A stretch of DNA of 26,936 nucleotides, taken from a virus. Position 1 is the stretch's first letter; the number at the start of each line of letters is the position of its first letter. Shown here one piece after another: positions 13,351-15,875 of the stretch. The notes under the pieces were generated by a model. The model did not search any database, was not told the DNA's origin, and worked only from the letters and a program-made list of their open reading frames with translations. Position numbers and translations under genes: made by a program. The stretch is from the IMG/VR virus record IMGVR_UViG_3300042898_003706, positions 1 to 26,936 of that record. The stretch is one strand, 5' to 3'.

Positions 13351-13361
13351 TCAGTTAATGG

Positions 13362-13390
13362 TTGACTATGCGTTTATTATACTATATAAT
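13362..13390 (+). promoter_or_regulatory. sigma-70-type promoter
   Basis: TTGACT at 13362-13367, a 17-base spacer, and a perfect TATAAT at 13385-13390. Five of six -35 bases and all -10 bases fit the bacterial housekeeping consensus, so host polymerase should read it early. The predicted start point falls at about 13396-13398, directly on ATG 13398. Confidence 0.7.
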
Positions 13391-13397
13391 TATTGTT

Positions 13398-14072
13398 ATG
13401 TCAAACTCATTAATATTTTTAGGCACATGTGCTAACATAATCAGATATAAAGATGCGGCAGAACGTCAGGGCTTAACTGTTGCTGGTATTTTAGACAGTG
13501 ATTGGTTTGGAAATACCGCAGACTTTCAAGGCATACCAATATTAGACTCTGAGCAAAATATCTCTAAATATAGAAACTCGCATAATTTTTTTATAGCGAC
13601 CAACTGGAGCATAGATCCAAATCATGTGCGTGATAAAGAAAAACGCAAAATGCTAATTGATCTAGTACGCAAACAAGATATAGACTGCGTTAATATCATT
13701 GATCCTAGTAGTTACATTGGTACCGGAACGAAAATTGGTCAAGGGGTATATATTGCATTTTGCGCAATGATTGAACCTGGTACCGTACTTAAAGATTTTT
13801 GTCAAGTACATGACTTTGTTGGCCTAGCACACGGAACACAGGTGGGCGAGAATACTATTATCCAACGTCAGGCAGGACTACATGCTGACATCGGTGATGA
13901 TGTTTATGTAGGCATGTGGGCCAAAGCATACAAACCGGGATTGCTAAAAATCGGAAATGGTGCTATAATTAATCCAAGTTTGTATGTAGCCCGTGATGTT
14001 GAACCTGGTGAAACTATCAGGTTAACCAAAGACAGTATTAAAGTTTACCAACATGGTATTAAAATAGAATAG
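13398..14072 (+). CDS. sugar O/N-acyltransferase (NeuD/PglD-like, hexapeptide repeats)
   Basis: A 224-aa protein. An N-terminal part (SNSLIFLGTCANI, AGILDSDW, PILDSEQNI) resembles the nucleotide-sugar-binding domain of NeuD/PglD-type acyltransferases. From about residue 105 on there is a left-handed beta-helix of hexapeptide turns (IGTGTKIGQGVYIAF, VGENTIIQ, IGDDVYVG, IGNGAIINPS). Such enzymes acetylate amino sugars or sialic-acid-like sugars with acetyl-CoA. H142, in the VHDFVGLAHG stretch, is a candidate for the catalytic base. I chose ATG 13398 because the family starts just before the first beta-strand and because the promoter's -10 ends at 13390. An upstream in-frame ATG at 13368 would lie inside the promoter. 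With this start the message would be leaderless. It opens the carbohydrate module. Confidence 0.82.
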   Translation: MSNSLIFLGTCANIIRYKDAAERQGLTVAGILDSDWFGNTADFQGIPILDSEQNISKYRNSHNFFIATNWSIDPNHVRDKEKRKMLIDLVRKQDIDCVNIIDPSSYIGTGTKIGQGVYIAFCAMIEPGTVLKDFCQVHDFVGLAHGTQVGENTIIQRQAGLHADIGDDVYVGMWAKAYKPGLLKIGNGAIINPSLYVARDVEPGETIRLTKDSIKVYQHGIKIE

Positions 14073-14073
14073 A

Positions 14074-14195
14074 TTATTAGTATAGGGTTCTCAACCAACC
14101 AATTTATGATATATGCGGACTAATTCTAGATAGCTAGCTTCCGACGGGTCATATGCTACGGTTGCAACTGTAGCGCGAGAACCCTATACTAATAA
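14074..14195 (+). ncRNA. candidate structured RNA with perfect 19-bp terminal stem
   Basis: TTATTAGTATAGGGTTCTC at 14074-14092 is exactly complementary to 14177-14195. The 84-base interior holds a second hairpin at 14156-14173 (CTACGGT/AACTGTAG type, 7 bp with one G-U pair and loop TGCA) and possible pairings ATATG/CATAT and CGGA/TCCG in the first half. The element fills the whole gap between the acyltransferase stop (14072) and the first base of tRNA-Ser (14198). It could be a stable RNA cut out of the tRNA transcript, comparable in position to the two stable non-tRNA species in the T4 tRNA cluster. Alternatives are a processing or termination structure, or a small inverted-repeat insertion. 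There is no open reading frame of note. Confidence 0.5.
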
Positions 14196-14197
14196 AT

Positions 14198-14285
14198 GGA
14201 AACGTGGCCGAGTGGTCGAAGGCACTTCACTGCTAACGAAGCAAACCGAAAGGTTTCGAGAGTTCGAATCTCTCCGTTTCCGCCA
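14198..14285 (+). tRNA. tRNA-Ser(GCU)
   Basis: The acceptor arm GGAAACG (14198-14204) pairs with CGTTTCC (14275-14281), followed by G and an encoded CCA. The anticodon loop CTGCTAA gives anticodon GCT, reading AGC/AGT. A long variable arm (AACC/GGTT) marks a class II tRNA, and the T-arm is GAGAG-TTCGAAT-CTCTC. The anticodon stem has an A-C mismatch next to the loop. Confidence 0.93.
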
Positions 14286-14302
14286 TTTTTAAATTGGGCC
14301 TT

Positions 14303-14310
14303 TATAAATA
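14303..14310 (+). promoter_or_regulatory. T4-type late promoter, exact TATAAATA
   Basis: A perfect TATAAATA lies 17 bases after tRNA-Ser and five bases ahead of ATG 14316. Transcription would begin at or beside the start codon, giving a leaderless or nearly leaderless message; no Shine-Dalgarno is present. Confidence 0.6.
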
Positions 14311-14315
14311 TAATA

Positions 14316-15875
14316 ATGAATATAGTAATTTTATCTGCACAAGCTGAAGCTGACCAATCTTCATTCCAACTAATAAACAGTTACGCATGGCATAATGAAT
14401 TTAGTTATTCCAGAAATGCTGGCGCCTATAAGATCGCAGCAGAGATGCGCAATCTAGGGCATAATGTTGAGGTCTTGGATTTCATTGTCTATTGGCCCGA
14501 AGAAGCAATTAAGAAATATTTTGAAGAACGTGCCGATCAAATAGATGTAGTTGCATGGAGTTCACAATTTTTTTTCAGACATTCGTTTTATCTAGAGTAT
14601 TGTGATTATATTAAAGAACTCAACCCAAATATAACAATAATAACAGGTGGCCCTAAGGTTGCTAACTTATTAAATTTTACCAAAAGTAAATATTTGATCG
14701 CTGGATATGCAGAAACAGCAATAGTTGATGTATTAAATCACATAGAAAAGAAACCCAATAAGTTAAAATTTCAAATAGTTAACGGTCAATACTATGTAGA
14801 TTGCCTAAAACATTATACAATGATAGAATTACCGCCTTTAGAGACCAAATATCATCCTAGTGATTATATTATTCCTTCAGAAACGCTAACACTCAGTACT
14901 TCAAGAGGATGTATATTCAAATGCGATTTCTGTACTTATCCGTATATTGGTAAGAAAAAAGGTGAATTTACCAGGATGGGGGCCGAAACTTACTATAATG
15001 AGTTAATGCAAAATTATATACAGTGGGGTACGACTAACTATTATCTAGCTGATGAGACTGCCAACGATTTGATTGATAAACTAATGGACCTCGAAGAGGC
15101 AGCTAAAATGTTGCCCTTTAAATTGGATATCACTGGATTTGCCAGATTAGATTTATTGATTAAACAAGAACCTCATTGGGCACTCTTTAAAAATATTGGA
15201 TTTACTAATTGGCATTTGGGTGTAGAAACATTTAGTCCCACATCTCTCAAAGCAATATCTAAACCATACTCGCCAGTTAAGTTGCAACAGGCACTAATAA
15301 AAATACGCGAGTATTTTCCTGAAGCAAATATGACTGCTTCTTTCATATTAGGGGCACCATACGATAGTCCAGAGCTGTTTGAAAAACACACAATCTCATG
15401 GTTAACAGGGACGGGCAAAGGTGTGCTGTCCGGAATAAGCATATTTGCTTTAAATGTACCCAGAGAAACACCGTATGCAGTTGGAAGTGAAATATCAAAG
15501 AATTTTAGAAATTATGGATATAATGAAATGACTGCTGATGAAATAGCACACGAAATGAAACTGCATCCGTCTATTACTATGAGTACAGTAGAAGAAACCT
15601 CAAAATATAATGTGCTATGGTCTACACCAGATTGGAATGTTATTTCAACAGAAACCTATTCCAGAGAAATTACTAAAACGGCATTACAACCAAATAATAT
15701 ATCTTGTTGGACTAGATCTAGAGCAATCAATGTGGGAATAACCCCTCAGGAAATTAAACAGTTGGTCAATCCAAATAATCAACCCCTGTCTAAACTAATC
15801 AGACAAAAAGTCGATGAATGTAGAAATGCATATATCAATAAAAAACTTGCACACAATTGGTTTCACGTGTTATAA
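14316..15875 (+). CDS. cobalamin-binding-type radical SAM protein
   Basis: A 519-aa protein. Residues 1-185 look like a B12-binding Rossmann-type domain (VEVLDFIVYW, DVVAWSSQFFF, ITIITGGPK at 107-114, IAGYAETAI). The radical SAM core begins at RGC(199)IFKC(203)DFC(206), followed by LADETAND, LGVETFSPTSLKAISKPYS and SFILGAPYDSPE, the typical strand endings of this class. Members often methylate unactivated carbons or rearrange and ligate substrates; the DxHxxG cobalamin motif is not obvious, so base-off cobalamin binding is uncertain. I chose ATG 14316 because the in-frame extension to 14196 runs through the tRNA-Ser gene. It sits between an acyltransferase and sugar-activation genes, so a carbohydrate or lipid substrate is plausible. 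Confidence 0.87.
   Translation: MNIVILSAQAEADQSSFQLINSYAWHNEFSYSRNAGAYKIAAEMRNLGHNVEVLDFIVYWPEEAIKKYFEERADQIDVVAWSSQFFFRHSFYLEYCDYIKELNPNITIITGGPKVANLLNFTKSKYLIAGYAETAIVDVLNHIEKKPNKLKFQIVNGQYYVDCLKHYTMIELPPLETKYHPSDYIIPSETLTLSTSRGCIFKCDFCTYPYIGKKKGEFTRMGAETYYNELMQNYIQWGTTNYYLADETANDLIDKLMDLEEAAKMLPFKLDITGFARLDLLIKQEPHWALFKNIGFTNWHLGVETFSPTSLKAISKPYSPVKLQQALIKIREYFPEANMTASFILGAPYDSPELFEKHTISWLTGTGKGVLSGISIFALNVPRETPYAVGSEISKNFRNYGYNEMTADEIAHEMKLHPSITMSTVEETSKYNVLWSTPDWNVISTETYSREITKTALQPNNISCWTRSRAINVGITPQEIKQLVNPNNQPLSKLIRQKVDECRNAYINKKLAHNWFHVL

Follow-up and report, generated by a model that had tools for sequence, protein, structure and literature searches.

Genomic setting and predicted fold

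The window analyzed here is a stretch of 26,936 nucleotides from an uncultured virus (positions 1 to 26,936 of IMG/VR record IMGVR_UViG_3300042898_003706), which is assigned to the T4-like phages on its gp32-like, UvsX-like and UvsY-like genes. On its + strand, a gene at 13398..14072, whose product has the hexapeptide-repeat look of an acyltransferase, ends with a stop codon at 14070-14072, and a tRNA-Ser(GCU; GCT in DNA letters), called by both ARAGORN and Rfam, occupies 14198..14285. As the upstream protein gave weak matches only, to PHROGs of unknown function, the name acyltransferase-like is drawn from its sequence. The gap between stop codon and tRNA is filled, except for 1 and 2 nt, respectively, by a 122-nt element (14074..14195) bounded by a perfect inverted repeat, the two 19-nt arms of which (14074-14092 and 14177-14195) are 100% complementary and enclose 84 nt. 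These borders, spacer and neighbours are exactly those given in the original prediction, made from the letters alone.

Several further features were observed around the element. A candidate sigma-70 promoter (TTGCTA-17-TATAAT, 10/12 in a consensus scan, with TG before the second hexamer) lies inside the acyltransferase-like gene at 13941..13969 (+), and the gap before that gene holds overlapping divergent matches (13362-13404; 12/12 on the - strand, 11/12 on the + strand); all such calls are candidates, being matches to the sigma-70 consensus. Moreover, TATAAATA boxes like T4 late promoters are found at 14303-14310 (+), just after the tRNA-Ser and before a radical-SAM-like gene, and at 13350-13343 (-), before the gene at 13181-12132. 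Between 1102 and 23822, several proteins resemble radical-SAM/B12 enzymes, and sugar-nucleotide and methyltransferase-like genes are present as well, all named by eye.

The 19-bp repeat is the sole perfect one among the inverted repeats listed for the window, and a window-wide search for the arm sequence, allowing up to 3 mismatches, matched the two arms and nothing outside them (2 matches vs 0.01 expected). Related phage DNA, 1.03 Mb in total, was found to hold only 7 other uninterrupted stems of at least 16 bp (G-U allowed) with similar spacing. As an RNA, the element is predicted to fold at -47.9 kcal/mol, compared to -24.1 +/- 3.3 for shuffled sequences (z = -7.2; 0/200 shuffles as good), into a long helix P1 formed by the arms, an interrupted arm P2 and a hairpin P3. 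Based on the predicted fold and the alignment, P2 (14105..14153) consists of the pairings 14105-14110/14148-14153, 14116-14119/14140-14143 and 14126-14129/14134-14137, and P3 (14155..14174) carries a palindromic loop, GUUGCAAC in the window. At least one further hairpin, of 7 bp, had been claimed for the interior, and one is indeed present, its 8 bp including one G-U pair and its loop having 4 nt. By themselves, the inner 84 nt fold mildly better than shuffles (z = -1.8), so that the inner structure depends on comparative evidence. When element and tRNA-Ser were folded together, two independent modules resulted, in which the element structure was kept and the tRNA part remained separate.

The element is not tRNA-like, as had been anticipated: it shows neither T-loop nor cloverleaf, and ARAGORN and Rfam call the adjacent tRNA-Ser alone. 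Nor is it a terminator, as no short GC stem followed by a T run was found in 13360-14400. A retron msr-msd was also considered and rejected, as the first arm is not followed by a conserved G, and none of the window's ORFs stood out as a reverse transcriptase when read by eye. Short ORFs within the element were set aside too, as no ribosome site is evident and variants do not preserve the ORF through P3.

Distribution and conservation of the element

Homologues were found in 16 IMG/VR contigs, which together with the window make 17 contigs and 11 distinct sequences. The identical 16 contigs were retrieved with each of three patterns, two from the core and one from the stem, arm-only matches of the stem pattern being left out; such matches, seen in 56 other viral contigs, were read as chance, as the second arm is absent. 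Two homologous loci were retrieved with the upstream protein as bait, and none with the radical-SAM-like protein. A covariance model of the element (R1) added no members, either from 87 sources around UvsX and other relatives or from whole records, and gave weak chance matches only on contigs carrying the same tRNA-Ser alone. In addition, nothing credible was found among INPHARED phages (four short matches, at chance level), PLSDB plasmids gave no match, and 85,000 species genomes scanned by pattern yielded nothing credible, the two matches there being read as chance since the fold and the flanks of the element are missing from both. Judged from IMG/VR, the family appears to be narrow, with absence from a given contig representing weak evidence, as contigs are fragments. 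An Rfam scan of the element at gathering and permissive thresholds returned only tRNAs and chance matches, and the open-access literature searched gives no description of it in titles and abstracts. The original proposal of an undescribed RNA agrees with these results, the element being conserved and structured in its homologues and without an Rfam family match.

In all 17 element-bearing contigs, the 3' neighbour is the tRNA-Ser, at a distance of 2-4 nt, and the upstream context differs: the element follows the acyltransferase-like gene in the window, L015 and L018, a tRNA-Leu in L011, L019, L020 and L022-L025 (thus standing between tRNA-Leu and tRNA-Ser), an HNH-like gene in L010, L013, L017 and L021, and, at a short distance, a promoter-like sequence in L012, L014 and L016. 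Promoter matches reach 11/12 in L012 and L014, with about 24-36 nt between their ends and the helix, and the window has one of 10/12. Regardless of what lies upstream, the left edge of homology coincides with the first bases of the helix. Moreover, the tRNA-Ser can exist without the element, as in 8 contigs this same tRNA stands alone, immediately preceded by a promoter-like sequence or a tRNA-Arg. The fixed spacing, combined with differing upstream genes, suggests that RNA and tRNA act as a unit.

When the window is compared to L006/L018 (one contig), identity is 90% for the element and 94% for the tRNA, against 53% at the third codon positions of the adjacent gene. Covariation in homologues had been put forward as one way to check the RNA, and the homologues do show compensatory and wobble changes, with substitutions preserving pairing in both the stem and the inner hairpin: pair 13/114 of P1 is seen as G-C, G-U and A-U, two pairs of P3 are changed on both sides, and the wobble pairs are compatible with the + strand alone. 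Of 500 shuffles, 1 attains the covariation score of the alignment (98.7% of cells paired), which drops once partners are slid. In turn, R1 scores 148 bits on the + strand and 34 bits on the - strand. P2 has one variable base (C/U) among the 11 distinct sequences, and this near-invariance leaves its pairs untouched by the covariation test. The covariation is supportive, not conclusive, as shuffles leave relatedness in place, and it is thin, resting on those two P3 pairs, as P1 and P2 hardly vary; part of the conservation is also explained by common ancestry, as the family is narrow. Altogether, the comparison supports selection on the element as a folded RNA with + strand polarity.

Possible roles of the RNA

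The homologous loci combine a conserved RNA fold and + polarity with a fixed site before tRNA-Ser, whichever gene stands upstream, and with a tRNA that also occurs alone. We consider it fairly probable that the element is a gene of its own in a T4-like phage, encoding a discrete non-coding RNA that is co-transcribed with tRNA-Ser from the + strand, released and acting in trans; a processed and trans-acting RNA would be the most likely product. Judging from general tRNA processing, RNase P would free the 3' end of the RNA when maturing the 5' end of tRNA-Ser, and P1 would keep the two ends joined and exonucleases out. The 5' end could be set by 3' processing of tRNA-Leu, or by exonuclease trimming back to the helix. 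Being near-invariant, P2 may bind a partner, representing a surface that recognizes a host or phage molecule in trans. The palindromic P3 loop, in turn, may pair two copies, so that the RNA is perhaps dimeric. Dimerization is suggested by loops that remain palindromic while changing among homologues (UUGCAA, UUGCGCAA and GUAUAC, with few independent changes); in a further variant, GUGCAA, the central UGCA is palindromic. Palindrome switching is a signal that has been used for the kissing loops of GOLLD and OLE (PMC12286853). Complementarity of the element to 16S and 23S rRNA of E. coli was no better than in shuffles, and a search of four contigs for antisense matches returned, besides the element itself and its reverse strand, one 11-mer, in L010 only.

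The link to tRNA-Ser in 17/17 contigs would fit a cis role as well, and a cis role in tRNA-Ser release is the main rival. The element would then be a leader, its helix serving as an RNase III or RNase P processing signal, or as an insulation signal, that tunes tRNA release or separates the upstream transcript. Its invariable position 2-4 nt before the same tRNA-Ser is in agreement with such a role, as are the homology, which starts with the first few bases of the helix irrespective of the upstream sequence, and the length of P1, 19 bp coming near that of an RNase III substrate. However, 8 contigs have the same tRNA-Ser and no element, and a near-invariant 49-nt P2 arm would be superfluous for a processing helix; on balance, we regard a cis-acting leader as rather unlikely. 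Far less probable is a ribozyme that would cleave itself and so trim the adjacent tRNA, as proposed for HDV-like theta ribozymes in gut phages: the element is small, has a conserved core and adjoins a tRNA as these do (PMC10879173), but it matches no Rfam ribozyme family even at E = 10, and theta ribozymes were proposed to process the 3' ends of tRNAs, whereas the tRNA that always adjoins the element lies 3' of it. A MITE-like small mobile DNA repeat is hardly credible, as the arms, although perfect terminal inverted repeats in varying upstream contexts, recur nowhere else in the window, each record searched holds one copy, always at the same spot before tRNA-Ser, and the G-U pairs kept on the + strand are A-C mismatches on the - strand, a bias unexpected for a DNA repeat.

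Returning to the released, trans-acting RNA, a tentative extension would be small phage RNAs of a new class, freed from tRNA operons, that dimerize through the P3 loop and capture a host factor with P2, a possibility we hold with considerable doubt. If true, the tRNA arrays of phages would contain several unrelated RNAs closed by long helices, the element among them. The small size of the element and the natural tRNA-Ser loci without it make in vitro study practical, and deletion too once a phage is cultured.

Other RNAs of phage tRNA arrays and known systems

The study of the element led to a second array-leader RNA, which is much more widespread. This family, unrelated to the element, about 150-270 nt long and recognized by the motif AAACGAGGTCC...AAACGGGCGGAC, was found via the long-stem scan in 60 IMG/VR contigs (L182-L241; an example locus is L118:18976-19218), mostly just 5' of tRNA arrays; 50 of its 60 loci have tRNAs, mostly downstream. 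Its 33 distinct sequences keep both motifs, as the search pattern required, with variable sequence between them, and a stem domain of 15-21 bp usually follows, containing in some cases a T-arm-like sequence (L205, L240). Those loci that were scanned against Rfam gave no family, only tRNA matches and sub-threshold ones at tRNA-like places, and the one member searched against INPHARED had no match. In addition, L138:20200-20437 is a candidate for another structured RNA in a phage tRNA array: its 238 nt are closed by an uninterrupted helix of 18 bp, fold at -81 kcal/mol and end 5 nt before a tRNA-Asp.

Judged by its sequence, the element is a structured RNA without a known RNA family match, in a small group of T4-like phages. 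Phage tRNA arrays harbour several RNAs of unknown function, namely T4 rnaC/rnaD, GOLLD and ROOL, to which the element adds a very small, sharply bounded RNA, resembling them by niche only. The analogy with the stable RNAs of T4, on which the original prediction drew, holds for the position in a tRNA cluster and not for homology. The late RNAs rnaC and rnaD of T4 (species 1 and 2 stable RNAs), whose function is unknown (PMC9697503), measure 119-139 nt, a size like that of the element, and are located in the T4-type tRNA cluster; the element shares this location, in several contigs between tRNA-Leu and tRNA-Ser, and lies 2-4 nt from its tRNA, compared to 1 nt for rnaD. However, rnaC and rnaD are without a long terminal helix, such as the 19-bp one of the element, and there is no sign of homology, as the predicted folds differ and rnaC ends in a T-arm-like hairpin.

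The phi29 pRNA is a packaging RNA of about 120 nt with paired ends, a three-way junction and loop-loop multimers; it belongs to an unrelated phage type, is not matched by the element in Rfam, and is like the element in shape only. Theta ribozymes are also small structured phage RNAs adjoining tRNAs, proposed as an alternative route for processing tRNA 3' ends (PMC10879173), but the HDV-like Rfam models do not match the element, and its constant tRNA is on the opposite side. GOLLD and ROOL share the element's niche near tRNA islands; their Rfam covariance models give no match, and GOLLD often exceeds 800 nt, compared to the 122 nt of the element. Both have symmetric kissing loops, and in one GOLLD loop the palindromes switch between homologues (PMC12286853).
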